Source: Amanita rubescens
Lineage: Eukaryota > Basidiomycota > Agaricomycetes > Agaricales > Amanitaceae
Assembly: GCA_015039365.1 (NCBI GenBank)
Contig: WION01000014.1
Location: 558,001 to 622,000 of the forward strand
Direction of reading: 5' to 3'
DNA length: 64,000 nucleotides
Positions 22,834 through 58,392 of this stretch are shown piece by piece. A program made the position numbers and the translations under genes. The notes beneath the pieces were generated by a model, which did no database searches, was not told the DNA's origin, and saw only the letters and a list, made by a program, of their open reading frames with translations. Positions within the stretch are counted from its first letter, which is position 1. Each line of letters opens with the position of its first letter.

Positions 22834-24791
22834 ATGGCACTCCGTCGCAGAAGTCTTTCGCGCTTTCTCATCTTCGTCGGTGCAATTGTCTCAGTCAAAC
22901 TCTTCTTCTTTCCTTCTTCTTCCCTCCCTTCTCCTCCAGAACACCAAATCAAAGGCCACAACTTCATCGAACGCGCTACTCGCCCGGACAAGTCGCTCAA
23001 TGTTCAGAAACACCGCTTTCTACAGGCTCGAATGGGACGAGACGAGCGTGATGAACTTATGGGTGACGTGATTCACAATGGTGCTAATGATTATTGGGAA
23101 CGGTACCAAAAACCATAGTGTGTACCTCTCTTCTCATCAATATCGCTTTTCACTCATCTAGACGCAGCATTCTCAGCAAAGAGACGTCCAACACGGATGC
23201 CCAACATGTAGCCACCGCCATAGACCAATTGCTTTCTCTGAACGGCTGGGTGGCGGCGCTTTGTCCTACTCTCGCGCGCCCATTTGGCCAGAATAAGTAC
23301 GACAACGCGTACGACGAGCTCATACGTCAAGATCACCTGTACTATGTAGCAATCGTCATTCATTCTGCCGACCACTTTTTAGTCGATCAGTTGGCTGTCA
23401 TCCTCCAAATGACCAAGCGTCTGGGCACTGACAACCTCTTTGTTTCTATGCTCGACTATGCCTCCACCGACTCGACAGAAACTTTGGTCGACCTATGCGA
23501 AGCAGTACTTACGCTCTTAGGCATCCCGTTTAGGATACGAAGGGTTTCGGGGATGACGGAGGACCCTGTAGCTGCATATTACCCGTTAGAAGAAGCATAT
23601 ATGCGCAATTTAGCTCTAGAGCCTCTGAAGGAGTTGCAGCAGAAACGAAACATCAAATTTAGTCGAGTTATCTGGCTCAAGGGATTTACGTGTCCCAACG
23701 ACATATTAGAAACCATCAAAATCAGTTTTTTGAATGAGGCGGCAATGGTGTGTGGGATGGATTGGGCGGAAAACAATGGCTTTTTCGTTTTTTCAGATAG
23801 GTAAAGAGGTCCGAGCCATTGAAGAGACCACATGTTCACTACGTTTTCCGTATAGGTGGAGGACGCGCGATATTGAGGGTGATCAATTCCGACAATCCAC
23901 ATCGAAATCTCAGCCAGATGCTGTACCACCTCGCGACAGGCTAGGAGCACAGCGCTATGCTGAACATCTTCCATTCCAAGTCTTCTGTTGCGAATCTGGC
24001 ACACACGTCGTCGATCCGCATCAATCCTACTACAAGGGTGTATATTATCGGACAGGAAGTGATCTCCAAAACCTCAGTCGCTCCGAAAACTCGCCCACAC
24101 GGGATCCGAATGCAGTGTGTCTTGACAGTAGTCAAGCCTGGTTCTGTCGGGACTTGTGGGTCCTTACCGCCCGGGACGCCATGGCTGACATGGACAATGA
24201 AATCAATTCTGGTGTTTTACGAAAACGAGAGTTGATTGATGTCGCTGCCTGGAATCCTTTGATGGAAAAACGAGATGCTGTAAGGGTTAAGGGCGCTGAC
24301 GGAGCGGAAGACGAGGTGAATGATAATGGTGAAGATCGACGACAGAAACAACAGTCTGACCCGGACGCTAACGCTGGTTCTGACTACGACGCCATGTCAC
24401 CTGAAGAAGGCGGAGAAGAGGTTCCGTCCGCAGAGGATTTTGAAAAATTGTCGATACCCAACTCTATGTTCCGGCCAGCCCGAATACTGGTCAATCCTAG
24501 ATGTCCGACGACTTATGCCGGCGTCAGTCATACCCAACTTGCACGAGATTTGTTTGGGGATGGAGTTGATGCACCGAGAGGAGATACCGCAAAATATATT
24601 CTAGAAGACTGGGAGGGCGCTCCTGAGAGCTTTGTTTGCCAGGAACAAAAGTAAGTCATTTCTCTTTCTATTTGCAATGAGCTATAACGTTCTCTTGAAG
24701 AACGACTGGTGGAAGGAAGGCCGCTAAAACACAAAGACGACTTGGCTTTTCAATTAATGAAGAGTTGCAGAAGATGCCCAAATGGACTTAG
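22834..24791 (+). CDS. CAP59/CMT1-type alpha-1,3-mannosyltransferase (GT69)
   Basis: Four exons; introns 23118-23167, 23801-23855 and 24651-24700. It starts only 88 bp after the NBS1 stop. MALRRRSLSRFLIFVGAIVS is a type II signal anchor, placing the enzyme in the Golgi. The catalytic part shows the family motifs LLSLNGWVAALCPTLARPFG, VSMLDYASTDSTE, VIWLKGFTCPNDILE and AAMVCGMDWAE, and FCRDLWVLTARDA further on. Relatives in Cryptococcus build capsule or glycolipid mannose linkages. An acidic, low-complexity insert (about 24290-24440) is peculiar to this protein. The C-terminus is PARILVNPRCPTTYAGVS and a basic tail. Confidence 0.85.
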
Positions 24792-52054: not shown

Positions 52055-52440
52055 TGTTACGAACTCGTTAATCTCAACCTAAGTTGCAACGGCAACTCTA
52101 GTCACGATTACAAGTCTTAAGTCAAACGTTAAGATTATAAGTTCAATACTAAGTCAAGATGTTGACTTAGGATCTGAGGACGATTGTGGTAAATGAGTTA
52201 AGAGTAAGGTTATATTGCCAGACGACAATAAACAGCTAAGTCGAACTTAGGGTTCGACTCTAGAATACATGCGGTATTTATACTAGCAAGTACAAAGAGA
52301 CGTACTAATTAATGAACAATGGTAAGTACAGAAGTAAGTATAAGGACGGCGTCATATGTGGAACAAGGGATGGTATAAACAAGTAAACGAGTTAGTCCGT
52401 ATGAATCGAGCATAAGGGGAGCGACGAGTAAGGTATGCAT
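52055..52440 (-). repeat. Gypsy 5' LTR, first segment (interrupted)
   Basis: 386 bp nearly identical to 44362-44747; the remaining 66 bp continue at 58393 beyond the nested transposon. Confidence 0.92.
52432..52440. repeat. 9-bp target duplication of nested element (GGTATGCAT)
   Basis: Same as 58384-58392. Present once at the corresponding site in the intact LTR (about 44739-44747). Confidence 0.95.
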
Positions 52441-52560
52441 TAATCTCGTACCCAGATTTTCTACGGGCCGGTACCCGGGCGGAGCCTGAAGCGGAGGCGA
52501 AAACTTTGGGGAAAGTTTCGCGCCAGGCTCCTCCCTAGAACATCTGGTGCAATTCCCCCC
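52441..52560. repeat. Left terminal inverted repeat with hairpin
   Basis: Arms CCAGATTTTCTA (52452-52463) and TAGAACATCTGG (52535-52546) are inverted copies with one mismatch. The intervening GC-rich part resembles the right end. Confidence 0.85.
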
Positions 52561-52692
52561 AAATACTGCGCTTGATGTTACGGTCACATTCACGTGATGT
52601 CTCCGGCTATTCTCAATATAGCAAACACCTCCTAAACCATTATGCGTCGTTGCAATTCGTATACTATGTATCTAGCTAGATGGTAATAAACA

Positions 52693-55309
52693 ATGGATCC
52701 AAATCTTGAAGGGGAAGAAGAAGCTCCCTCGGATATAGTTGTGCTTGAAGAAGACGAGGAAGACTTGTTCGACATTGATGAACTTGTAGACTTCACTTAT
52801 GACGAGCCCGAAGAATTGGATGAGCCGATGTTAGAAGAGGAAGAAACACCTGCGGACGCACCAATTGCTTACCAGAACACGATGCATCTCAAAGCTAGGC
52901 TGGATGCGGCAGATATTCTGTCGAAAGTAAAGAGAATCTTCAACTGCATGCAATCCGAGGGGCTGAACTTACCGTTGTTCTTGGATGCCGTTTTTTATGG
53001 AGATGCCGCATGTCATAATGATGCAGCTATACAATACCAGCGGACCGCCCTTATGGTTAGCGATGAGCTGCCTATACTGTTGGAGCGATGGTATCAAGCC
53101 CCCAGCCGAGGTCAAGGTTACCGGGGGCAACGGCCATTGGCTGCCAAGAAAGTTCTCGTCAACTTTGCACAAAAAATAGTCAACAAGCAAATGGATCGTG
53201 AAATGAAACTCACAGCAAAGTCTTTCCTTTCAAATTCCGAGCTCCTTTCGAAGGAGCATCTACTAAATCTTAACTTTAACGTCATAATGGCGGAGTGCCG
53301 GACACTAGCGCCAATAACATGGAGTTTGTTTCGGAAAGCTGCATATACCGTTGAGCAGGAAAAACATAACACTCATAAAAATCCCGATATGGTCAGTCTT
53401 CCGATTTTAAAATATAGCAGAAAATTAACTTTGGACTCTTCAGATAGTTCTTTCCATGATATCCCAGTGTCAGTATACACGGTCTTTCCGACGCAGCAGG
53501 TTGGCGAAAGCCTGGGCAATATATTTAAAAGCATGTGGAATGTCAGCTCGTGCTTTCGACGCCATCCACTCGCTCGGACTCACCATGAGTCATAAATGGA
53601 CGGCCGAGGCTTTCCGGACACTTTCCAAGAAGGCTATGGACGAGGTCCGTCAAATGGTCAAATCCCAACCTTTCTTTGTGTCATACGACAATGTAAATGT
53701 TCCGCTTCGGGTGTTTTCTCAACGTCTACACAACCAGAGTCATTTTCAAAGTGGATGTGCTGGTACGGTGTGGACATTACCTATTGAAAAGGCACTCGTT
53801 CCACGGATAAACCGTGCTCTACAAGAAACCCGTCGCGCTGCTACCATGTTCGATATAACACCTCTAATCGATGGCATTCCAGCAGCTGCGAAGCGTCTGA
53901 GAGCCTCGTATATCTATCATATATTGTCAGTGCTTCTAAATTCACCGGAATTCCGAGCATACCCTGCCACTCACCGGAACCATGAATGTCTCGCCCCTCC
54001 TGCTCCTGTCCACGAGCTCCCTGTTGGTGAAAATGCTAGGAACATTCAATACATGCTAGAAACCGCACCTATTGAGGAGGCCAGTTATGACGGAAACGAT
54101 AAGGTCGTTGCTGAATGGTTCCGTCAATTACAACTTGATTCGGAAGTAGAACAAAAACAAACCGGGCTTGACCGAGTCTTAGTTTGTTGTGGTGATCAAT
54201 TGACGATGGATCGTCTTCGGGGCTTGTATAAATATCGCCACGAGGACTTTAATTCGTTTGATCGCATGGACTACCTCGTATTGTCTCCAGGATGGTTCCA
54301 CCTGGTGATGGCATTTGCGTTATCATTATACAAGCAATATTACGGGACATCGAACTCCGTTGGACTGCTGCGCCATGCATTTGACCTGTTACATAAAAAG
54401 AAGATGTCACCCGCAAGCAAGGGTCCATTTTGGAACGACCTAGACGAAGCCCTTCGTCATATTAGCGAAGCACATTTTCGCACGAGTTGGTGTCAACTTA
54501 CAGGCGCAAAAACATTGGATGATCTGGTAAAAAAGAGACCAGAAGAACTGCATGCATATGCCGGTCAGATTCTTGACCGTTACGCATCAATGGCTGCATT
54601 AGTTGAACTTCAAGAACGAATGCCTTCCGACAAACCGGATCTAGTTCAAGAAAACAGTATTATGTGGAATAAAGACATATTGCCATACCTGGAGTTGACT
54701 GCAGCCATAAAGGAAGGGGATGTGGGCCGAATGGAAGACTTGATACCCGTGATCCTGTTCCGTTTTGCAGGTGGCGGGAACTTTAAGTACACCGTCGAAC
54801 TTCTTGAAATGCTCCAAGGATTGCATTGCGAATGGCCTCCGGAGGTGCGGGACTACGTGCGGGACCACTGCTGGGTTGTCAATAGAGAAGGTCGACGAAA
54901 TACATTTCTAGCCGTTGACCAAGCTCAAGAGCACAATATTAAAGATATCAAAGTCACTTACAGGTCATTTGGACCCGGAGCCACTTGGAATTATCTTCAG
55001 ACCATCTCGCCCGCTATTCCAACTTTACGTGCCGTTCAGCGGCATTTCGAGCAACAGTTTGAAACAATCACTCGAGGGTCAAAGCACGGTGACGTCAGTA
55101 AGGATTTAGATGTCAAAACATTGACAGACCATTATGGATTGGCCAAACTGTATTCGGACCAGCCCGGGCGCAAACCAAAGGACGGCAGTATACGTGTTGC
55201 AGATTATATCACCTCCGGTGTTGATGCCTTAGAAAATGGAGATACTGTCAACAAGTGGTGGAAAGCTCGTCACTTCGAGCGCTCGACCAAGGAGACATGG
55301 GATGGTTGA
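52693..55309 (+). CDS. DUF6589-family protein, candidate transposase of the nested element
   Basis: Two exons (52693-53391, 53444-55309), 854 residues. The first 60 residues are very acidic (EEEAPSDIVVLEEDEEDLFD). The core has the features I recall for DUF6589: an N-terminal helical KACGMSARAFDAIHSLGLT-type motif, FFVSYDNVNVPLR (D near residue 315), VLVCCGDQLTMDRLRG (D near 484), WFHLVMAFALSLYKQYYG, and NFKYTVELLEML (E near 685). The three acidic residues would fit a DDE transposase of RNase H fold, but that is inferred from spacing only. The C-terminus has KDLDVKTLTDHYGL. The frame is open throughout with no stop. Confidence 0.85.
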
Positions 55310-55438
55310 GATATAATGGTATTGCATTTCATCGCGTAAATACAAATATTCTATCATTCGAAATTGGTCAAGTATAACTTATATTGAATAAAAATATACT
55401 CACTTCAAGGTACACTAGCACGGTATTCTTGTATAAAG
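55310..55438. other. Convergent gap inside nested element
   Basis: 129 bp between the two gene ends, AT-rich, likely carrying both polyadenylation regions. Confidence 0.5.
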
Positions 55439-58192
55439 TTATTTGGGGTTCTGAAATGGTCCCATCGCGTTGAAGTCGTACTGGGAAAACGTAGGATGTG
55501 GCTGGACGGGCGGTGCAGGTTGCATCGGATTTTGATAGGGCGCGAGATAATAGGGTGATGCCCATAAGCGAGCAGACGATAGAGGCGGAGGGCTAGCCGT
55601 GGAATAGTGAGGCGCAGACGTCGTAGGGCTAGCCGTGGGAGGCGTGAAAGGCGGTGCACAGAGGCTAGCCGTAAGTGGCGTGAAAGGCGTCGATGAGGGC
55701 GAATAGTAAGGCGCAGACGTCGTGAACCGTGGTGGGGTGAACGGAGCCATGGGAAACCACGAGCCCGTCGGATGTAATACAGATGGCGGAGATAGGGGTA
55801 CGTTTTCCTTACCTTGAGCCCCCATCTCCGCGGCCACGTGTGCTGGCGCGACATGCTTCTTTGCTCGTGAGAGTCGCGGTTTCTTAGGCCTTCTCGACCG
55901 TTCCTCTTCCCTTCGCCTCTTCGCCTCTACTTTCTTCGCCTCCCTAGCGACTGCTGCGATACGTTGACGCTCCAAACGTTCGTCCAATTTCTTTTGTTTT
56001 TCAGACGAGCGTCGACTACGCTCACGTTCGTCAACTTTGTGTAGGATAGACAGTATCTGTTCGCCATGACGAAGAGCACGGTGCCGTGACAAACCTCCAA
56101 TTTCGACCAAATTATCAACAGACAGAATGTATGTCTTTTGCGCAAGATTGGAAATAACTCGGGATGGCAGGATTACTTCGGGACTCCACGGGCATTGACT
56201 GTAGAGATTTGTCCACGTCTCTACTCGCCACCGCTCAAGCGACCGTTGGGCATCAGCCAGATGTGCGCCTCGCCGCCTTTGGGGAAGAATAGAGGGATCG
56301 CGACGCTTGGTTGAGGGCCTGGGTATACCTGTATCGGAGGTGACATCGTCTCCTATATCTTTGTCTGATTCCTCAAGCTGATCTGCTGTGGTGTCACCTA
56401 GTCCATCCATAGAGACGTTTTCTATGACGTTCGAAGGTCCTGCCGTCGAGCAGGCCTTTGAGTTCACCACATCGAAATTGCCGACGTTCGAGAAATCCAC
56501 AATTGTCGTCTCATTGGTCTTCCGTTGACAGTTGTCGCAACAGATACCGAGCGGCGCTTATCTGTGTAAGTAGATGTCTTCTTTGTTATAGACGATTCGA
56601 ACTTACTCGACCGTGGCACACCGGAGTCGTAGTACTCATCAACAACATCGCGGCGACATTCGGCTGCTTCGATCCATTGACGCAGACCACCATGAATCTC
56701 TTTCCGGTATTGAGGAGTGTCTGTAGTAGTACCGTCCATCTCTGGTGAGCTAATTTCCTTTTTGCTTGAAATCTCCTGAAATACTGAAGGCTGAACGAGC
56801 AATATAGCCTCTGCCTGGATGGTCCTATCATGACCAGCTCGACCACCCCGCTGTAACCAAATATCCAGAGATTTTGGAACAGTGAATTGAATCACCCGCT
56901 TAACATGTGATATATCACATCCCTGAGCGTAGAACATTAGTTAGACAATCGTAATATGCACCAGACAATGATGTACCATTCCGGCTGCTTCAGTCGTGAG
57001 TAGAATCTTGATCTCTTGGTTGCGAAATTGTTTCATGACGATTTTTTTAGCTCGGGATGTTCGGCGTGAGTGGTATACAGCGATTTCCTGGTGACGAGCT
57101 TGGGGCATCAGGTGACGTAGATAGACCATAGCTGACATGGCCAAGGCAATGTCATCAAAGAATATCATTGTGGGAATGAATGGTCCTGGCGTGTTTGTGT
57201 CAACGTCAGGAGGAGGGATAATGAATTTTAAGCTTTCCAAGTCTTTCCCTTGTGTCATATGCCTGACTGACCATGCAATATTGGGTCTATCTACACCCAG
57301 CATGACATGGTAAGAGGATAAGGGGTCTACCAGCATGATTTTACGTGCATGATCTAGTGATGATGGAGTGAGTGTTGCAGATGTTAAGAGAACGGGAGCT
57401 TGTGGTGCAAATGCCCGGATTTCCCCTAGGTCTGCATATTCCTGGCGGAACTGGGGTCCCCACTGTGTAATACAATGTGCTTCATCGACAACAATTAAGC
57501 ACATTGCATGTGAGAATTTGGCTACACTCAGCAATTGGCGGAAATCAGGATGTTTCAAGCACATCTCTGGTGATGAGAGTATTACTTGATATTTTCCGCT
57601 TTCAAGATCCTAACAATGGTCATTTTAAGCTCATCAGGTATGGGGGGGACCCACTTTATGAAGCTGAGATGAATAAGTTTCACCATTTACAGCCACAGCG
57701 GTTAACCCCATCTTTTGAAAGCGAGCAGCCTGTCAAACGGTTTGTGATTAAATGCACTGGCAGTACGTGCTTCAAATATCTTACCTGATCCTCCTCCAGG
57801 GAATTCAGAGGCGAGATTATGAGTACTGTCTTTTGGGGCTTAATGAACAGGGGCATTACGAATGGCAATGTCTTTCCTGCCCCTGTCCCCGCAATCACAG
57901 TACAATCTAGGCCTAATAGAATGGCCTCAGCCACGTCTACCTGCCACTCATAAGCCTTTAATCCATTGGTGCAATTGAAGAGCTCGTCTTCGATCTTTCG
58001 GCGTGTAGCTGTTGAAGAATAGCTATTTTCTTGGGCGGACCGCTGCCGAGCCTGATCCAAGTTTGTCGCAGAATTTCGCGCTTGATTCTGATGACGTCGG
58101 TGACGCTCTAGAGCCGGTGACATACGTGGGATCCAGGGATCCAGGGATGCAGGAAGCCAGCGCGCGACGCGTTTAGGGGTAAACAATGTCAT
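55439..58192 (-). CDS. RecQ-family DNA helicase of the nested element
   Basis: Introns 57730-57784, 57610-57654, 56923-56976 and 56558-56606. Helicase motifs: I IAGTGAGKTLPFVMP, Ia ISPLNSLEEDQ, II VVDEAHCITQWG, III LLTSATL, and V/VI AAGMGCDISHVKR, QRGGRAGHD (usual QRxGRxGRD). The region after GVPR-STPLGICCDNCQRK is Cys-rich like the RecQ zinc domain. A long C-terminal extension follows, with a Lys/Arg/Glu coiled coil (DERLERQRIAAVAREAKK) and a Pro/Ser/Tyr-rich tail that has tandem-like PFTPLTAS repeats. The start is uncertain: ATG 58192 or 58123; one at 58273 falls within the inverted end. It would unwind element ends or replication intermediates. Confidence 0.85.
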
Positions 58193-58261
58193 GTGATACG
58201 TATGATATAATACAATTTCTAAGCAAGGTGACTCAAGCGTGACTCGAGCGCAGTGTTGCCA

Positions 58262-58383
58262 GGGGAAATGCACCAGACGTTCTAGGGCAGCGCCGTGCTC
58301 AAAAGTCGCGCCAAAAAATTTGCCCCCGCTTCACGCTCCGCTCGGCTGTCTCCGCTGCCCTAGAACGTCTGGGAACGAGACTA
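58262..58383. repeat. Right terminal inverted repeat with hairpin
   Basis: Perfect 19-bp arms, CCAGACGTTCTAGGGCAGC at 58273-58291 and its complement at 58354-58372, with a loop of about 62 nt. Confidence 0.9.
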
Positions 58384-58392
58384 GGTATGCAT
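58384..58392. repeat. 9-bp target duplication, right copy (GGTATGCAT)
   Basis: Matches 52432-52440 exactly. Confidence 0.95.

Follow-up and report, generated by a model that had tools for sequence, protein, structure and literature searches.

Our analysis concerned a window of 64,000 nucleotides from the Amanita rubescens genome (WION01000014.1, positions 558,001 to 622,000) and in it a segment of 5943 bp at 52441-58383, whose coordinates are exact to the base. The window is part of contig C46 in an assembly of 75.7 Mb and 786 contigs, which are given here as C numbers. Between inverted ends the segment carries a gene for a protein of the DUF6589 family (PF20231) and a gene for a RecQ-like helicase, and it is flanked on each side by a perfect 9-bp duplication, GGTATGCAT. 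We read it, with a probability of about 0.84, as a DNA transposon with DUF6589 as predicted DDE transposase, a RecQ-like helicase as likely helper, and a likely place in the AcademH lineage. This reading draws on precise ends, 9-bp duplications at unrelated sites, empty sites, deleted short copies, and a recurrent gene pair. Features of the element and of related elements are compiled in Table 1.

Element boundaries and terminal inverted repeats

Each inverted end spans about 110 bp, and the two match imperfectly, with 16 of 20 positions matching at the tip and 76% identity over 84 nt without gaps. A scan for end pairs located beside a repeated 8-10-mer returned the 16/20 match at exactly the coordinates of the element, while the best such pair in a shuffle control (10 shuffles of each of 6 stretches) reached 14/20. 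A 10-bp repeat, AGGTATGCAT, can also be read, as A58383 and the right copy of the duplication together match the left flank. Because copies at other sites carry this A, it was assigned to the element and not to the duplication. Each end contains an inner inverted copy of a CCAGA..TTCT motif, located about 80 bp inside in the left end, and the right end includes a perfect 20-nt inner inverted pair (58273-58292 and 58353-58372). The 16-bp tip TARTCTCGTWCCCAGA has 35 exact occurrences in the genome and 77 with at most one mismatch, compared to 6 for the reversed control.

Table 1. Features of the element in the window and of related elements on other contigs
Feature	Position in window	Strand	Basis or details
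Target duplication, left copy GGTATGCAT	52432..52440	.	flank sequence
Left terminal inverted repeat region, tip TAATCTCGTACCCAGA	52441..52551	+	alignment of ends
DUF6589 gene, predicted transposase, 854 aa, exons 52693-53391 and 53444-55309	52693..55309	+	PF20231, E=4.4e-125
D87 codon, predicted catalytic acid 1	53687..53689	+	model strand 82-91; D in 135/141, N in 6
D256 codon (GDQLT), predicted catalytic acid 2	54194..54196	+	right after model strand 251-255; D in 140/141, 1 gap
Stretch of 334 bp deleted in the C97 and C141 copies, inside the DUF6589 gene	54839..55172	+	copy alignment
E501 codon, predicted catalytic acid 3	54929..54931	+	model helix 496-510; E in 127/141, 11 gaps, 3 other
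RecQ-like helicase gene, several predicted exons, low-complexity C-terminal part	55439..58192	-	profile matches; gene start and exon limits inferred
Right terminal inverted repeat region, tip read inward TAGTCTCGTTCCCAGA	58273..58383	-	alignment of ends
Target duplication, right copy GGTATGCAT	58384..58392	.	flank sequence
C726 element, 5588 bp, 91-bp perfect ends, tip CAGACTCCGTACC			duplication CACTTCTAT, 9 bp
C5 element, 5794 bp, tip CAGACTCCTACCC			duplication GATAACATC, 9 bp
C257 element, 5734 bp, tip CAGACTCCTACCC as in C5			duplication GAGGTAAGT, 9 bp
C693 element, 5780 bp, tip CAGGCTCCTAGAACC			duplication GATTTTGGA, 9 bp

Further copies and empty sites

At two other sites we found copies that begin and end exactly where the window element does and have perfect 9-bp duplications of their own. 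One site is common to C97 (5609 bp) and C141 (5592 bp) and has the duplication AGAAAAAAG. Apart from one deletion, the C97 copy shares 99.9-100% identity with the window copy, and the C141 copy, which has further small indels, shares 99.5% with 22 gaps. The deletion is the same in both copies (C97:93807-99415 and C141:6407-11998), which lack 334 bp of the DUF6589 gene. A database entry, P0005, presents the C97 gene as an ordinary protein whose end differs; residues 1-300 of the window protein are those of P0005. At the other site, on C373, the copy measures 6016 bp, has the duplication TCGGTACAC, and aligns with the window element in two long pieces (73% and 71% identity) separated by a middle part that does not align. 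The target right after the duplication starts with TAATCT, resembling the element tip (C373:17566-17574 and 23591-23605), and therefore the duplication length is not fixed by the C373 copy alone. This likeness may reflect either chance or a target preference. The recurrence of the same boundaries at the C97/C141 and C373 sites bears out the long inverted ends and perfect 9-bp duplication proposed by an earlier sequence-only reading of the window. A further copy on C383 is identical to the window across the whole element (5943 bp) and across the 200 bp of either flank that were compared and hence appears to be the other allele or a duplicate contig.

Short derivatives were also present. A gene-less one of 128 bp on C355 retains both ends and is flanked by the 9-bp duplication GGATCTTGG. 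Another one on C114 (188 bp) derives from sequence resembling the outer 89 and 99 bp (91% identity) and likewise has both ends; examination of its flanks revealed no target duplication.

Joined flanks of the insertions on C373, C257, C693, C355, and C5 were used to search for empty versions of the sites, and uninterrupted versions were found for four of these five. The joined C373 flanks matched 111 bases on C775 perfectly with a single TCGGTACAC, and C101 and C181 represent diverged empty versions of this site. Matches across the junction were 97% for C257 (on C44), 100% for C693, which lies in a high-copy repeat, and 95-96% for C355. No empty version of the C5 site was found in the genome. 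For C726 the left flank alone was searched and had one occurrence in the genome. Exact ends, duplications, and empty sites agree with the earlier proposal that the segment is a DNA transposon.

Predicted fold and conserved acidic residues

The DUF6589 gene is open and contains a single predicted GT-AG intron of 52 bp (53392-53443). Among the folds present in the fold lists that were compared, the modelled protein resembles the Hermes and P-element transposases, with 6-10% identity in the structural alignments. Conservation was assessed on 141 aligned proteins, comprising the window protein and 70 relatives from each of two protein searches (the first 70 of 94 listed with at least 600 aa and the first 70 of 80 with 600-949 aa; shorter ones were excluded). 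Three acidic residues, D87, D256, and E501 in the numbering of the 53429-55309 frame, are nearly invariant in this set. By prediction the protein has the RNase H fold and the triad of D, D, and E/D that are general for DDE transposases. The predicted role of the DUF6589 protein as transposase of the element is well supported, and the predicted DDE transposase fold favours the suggestion of the sequence-only reading that DUF6589 is a transposase family.

The C/DxxH motif was searched for between the second D and the last E. H291 itself is conserved (H in 139 of 141 proteins), and a C or D three residues before it occurred in 0 of 140 alignment rows. At any other offset the motif was found in at most 8 rows.

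Helicase gene and its association with DUF6589

The reading frames of the helicase gene contain GTGAGKT, DEAH, QWGPQFRQEY, QRGGRAGHDR, and CCDNC, which we take to be RecQ hallmarks. Pieces matched successive parts of the RecQ family TIGR00614 (positions 15-73, 97-288, and 288-389), each below the whole-protein cut-off, likely because each represents one exon. Two pieces exceeded the PF00270 cut-off. An intron divides the PF00271 match into two parts (23.4 and 19.7 bits at a cut-off of 23.5), and the HRDC match was weak (16.2 bits, cut-off 23.8). For the longest core exon, WRN was the nearest solved relative, followed by bacterial RecQ and RECQ1. The low-complexity 3' part of the gene includes near-perfect short direct repeats of 17-27 nt (window 55500-55723; families D2, D3, D6, and D7). 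Two intact convergent genes had been claimed for this locus. This holds for the DUF6589 gene, whereas the helicase motifs are readable and the gene, as judged from predicted exons, is likely to be intact.

The 45 DUF6589 matches in the genome were combined into 28 loci, fragments counted, and the 47 obtained with one exon of the window helicase into 42 helicase loci. A helicase was located within 6 kb of 25 of the 28 DUF6589 loci, in 22 cases in convergent orientation, compared to about 0.2 pairs expected by chance; allelic contigs were counted separately, so that independent cases are fewer than 25. The view that both genes belong together as a pair is thus supported. On C236, C385, and C760 the helicase is located upstream of the DUF6589 gene on the same strand at a distance of 3.8-3.9 kb. 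No helicase was found within 6 kb of DUF6589 on C3, on C168, and at a second C385 locus. Conversely, 17 of the 42 helicase loci are without DUF6589 pairing. Among the helicase exons of the window type, those at C693:93036-93668 and C331:1455847-1456465 have no DUF6589 match within 6 kb, and the 16-bp window tip occurs with one mismatch about 2.7 and 0.7 kb away, respectively. These may possibly represent helicase-only derivatives.

Other DUF6589 loci and spread of the family

Of the 28 loci, 15 were examined for ends. These correspond to 13 sites, because C383 repeats C46 and C141 repeats C97. Inverted ends with a 9-bp duplication were recognized at 7 of the 13, with four differing termini that share a loose YARNCTC start. 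The duplication reads 9 bp at all seven, with varied sequences.

At C300:73294-80328 and C168:315140-322224 DUF6589 genes are located inside large inverted repeats (about 90-375 bp aligned), with tips like TAGTCTCGTGCCCAGA or TAGTCTCATGCCCAGA nearby. Matches with 8-bp palindromic "duplications" at these loci were discarded. The best-scoring DUF6589 frame, which is open, lies at C331:1050411-1053525 beside a diverged helicase (27%); this locus is perhaps an old or domesticated copy.

In two protein searches PF20231 was present in all of the 120 matches listed for each (of at least 185 and 178, respectively), and those with a named organism belong to Agaricomycetes. Three database proteins found with a bait sequence also contain PF20231. 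One of these, from the sponge Corticium candelabrum, scored 80.7 bits (cut-off 27) over profile positions 8-216 of 410; it has a GDNID stretch and GDQLT and ends before the third acid. The two others have GDQLT and an L/IEHLN stretch which may hold the third acid. In the predicted proteins P0140 (Pleurotus pulmonarius) and P0157 (Coprinellus aureogranulatus) DUF6589 is joined to an F-box-like domain and to DNA-ligase domains, respectively, which may be either true fusions or gene-model errors. When the DUF6589 alignment was run against viral contigs, 59 pattern matches resulted, none of which was confirmed as a relative. In a viral structure library a Pandoravirus hAT protein ranked first, at E 2.8e-3, and no match was as low as 0.001.

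Proposed mechanism and alternative explanations

We propose that the DUF6589 protein would bind the paired motifs within each end, cut at both ends to excise the element in a cut-and-paste manner, and join the ends to target strands 9 bp apart, giving rise to the 9-bp duplication. Host repair of the donor gap may then generate deletion derivatives, which could subsequently be moved in trans. The helicase might unwind the ends or process branched or gapped repair intermediates; this is the least certain step. Six of the 13 sites examined (C300, C168, C321, C515, C331, and C115), at which no clean ends with a duplication were found, weigh against this interpretation. No convincing inverted ends were detected on C321, C515, and C115, and in the 10 kb fetched for C331 only a 42-bp inverted match of 76% was present (E 0.004). 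Around the large inverted repeats on C300 and C168 no clean target duplication was found. Thus, the expectation that inverted repeats and 9-bp duplications also border other DUF6589 genes applied to seven sites and failed at six.

Among the other explanations, we consider it unlikely that DUF6589 constitutes a DDE transposase superfamily of its own in mushrooms and animals, with a dedicated RecQ helicase, unrelated to Academ and resembling AcademH by convergence. The helicase type, the 9-bp duplication, and the occurrence in Basidiomycota all match AcademH in the accessible parts of its descriptions, and DUF6589 occurs in an animal, as does AcademH by the title of its report. In favour of a separate superfamily, the term DUF6589 did not turn up in the literature searched, and Academ was known to us by description and not by a reference transposase sequence. 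Very improbable, in our view, is a passenger arrangement in which the DUF6589 and helicase genes are cargo and the ends are moved by another transposase. The gene-less C355 derivative has moved, and therefore the ends suffice as substrate, as such an arrangement would require; yet the DUF6589 gene and the helicase lie between the ends in elements with four differing termini, and the predicted fold of DUF6589 itself is that of a transposase, its triad being conserved.

Mutator-like elements (MULEs) generate 9-bp target duplications. The long inverted ends and 9-bp duplications of the window element are shared with the MULE/MuDR group, to which it might belong with a strongly diverged transposase. 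This we regard as extremely improbable, since no MULE Pfam match was obtained and the result of the test for C/DxxH, which MULE/MuDR transposases carry between the second D and the last E, largely contradicts it; the likeness to Mutator noted by the sequence-only reading therefore does not amount to membership. Practically negligible is an assignment to KolobokH, a fungal Kolobok lineage of DDD/E transposons which shares the RecQ helicase. According to the available portions of the literature, Kolobok elements have TTAA duplications of 4 bp and the C/DxxH motif. The assignment is contradicted by the varied 9-bp duplications of the DUF6589 elements, in which the motif was not found.

Taken as an AcademH transposon, the element represents a new family within a kind already known, and what it newly contributes is that DUF6589 is likely the AcademH transposase. 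The Pfam version used labels PF20231 as a family of unknown function, and no paper naming DUF6589 was found in a literature search that did not extend to Repbase, InterPro notes, and papers under subscription. A large number of mushroom proteins carry the label "hypothetical" or "DUF6589 domain-containing", and the helicases beside them could be mistaken for RecQ genes of the host. Should DUF6589 be the AcademH transposase, such gene pairs ought to be annotated as mobile elements and fungal RecQ counts revised, and a structural model and a catalytic triad open to testing would be available for the family. A transposon-encoded RecQ helicase also offers a route to ask for the role of helicases in DNA transposition.

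Comparison with known superfamilies

In the predicted fold, helices are inserted into the RNase H core ahead of the last E, as in hAT (Hermes) and P-element transposases. In contrast to the window element, hAT elements usually have 8-bp duplications (5, 6, and 7 bp are known) and the C/DxxH motif according to the sources as far as accessible, and hAT was set aside on account of both differences. Zisupton (KDZ), with an 8-bp duplication, was likewise set aside in view of the 9 bp in DUF6589 elements. Plavaka has duplications of 2-3 bp in the sections available.

AcademH was reportedly introduced by Kojima in 2020 (Mob DNA 11:15) as a helicase-encoding lineage of animals and fungi. The accessible sections of later papers attribute 9- or 10-bp duplications and a helicase to AcademH, in contrast to 3 or 4 bp and a nuclease in AcademX (PMC10045372), tie DEAD, Helicase_C, and PIF1 domains to AcademH, KolobokH, and Helitron, and record AcademH at low copy number in Basidiomycota, Ascomycota, and Mucoromycota (PMC10799480). 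The designation of the window element as undescribed, with no named superfamily for its gene pair, is not supported in the light of these descriptions. In the portion of another study that could be consulted, putative short MULE and Academ insertions are widespread in a mushroom genome (PMC8290104), and Academ is absent from the part seen of a published list of superfamilies with the C/DxxH motif.

Pfam and NCBIfam scans of the element proteins gave no match named Academ. The window element encodes a helicase with DEAD and Helicase_C domains, and the duplication is 9 bp at all seven sites with recognized ends. As to the range of fungi and animals, DUF6589 occurs in many Agaricomycetes and in the sponge C. 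candelabrum, where DUF6589 alone was compared. In its helicase, 9-bp duplications, few full-length copies, and basidiomycete host, the element thus resembles AcademH as portrayed in the accessible text, and no difference emerged among the features compared, the comparison being one by description and not by transposase sequence. By helicase, duplication length, and host group, the window element is likely an AcademH transposon.
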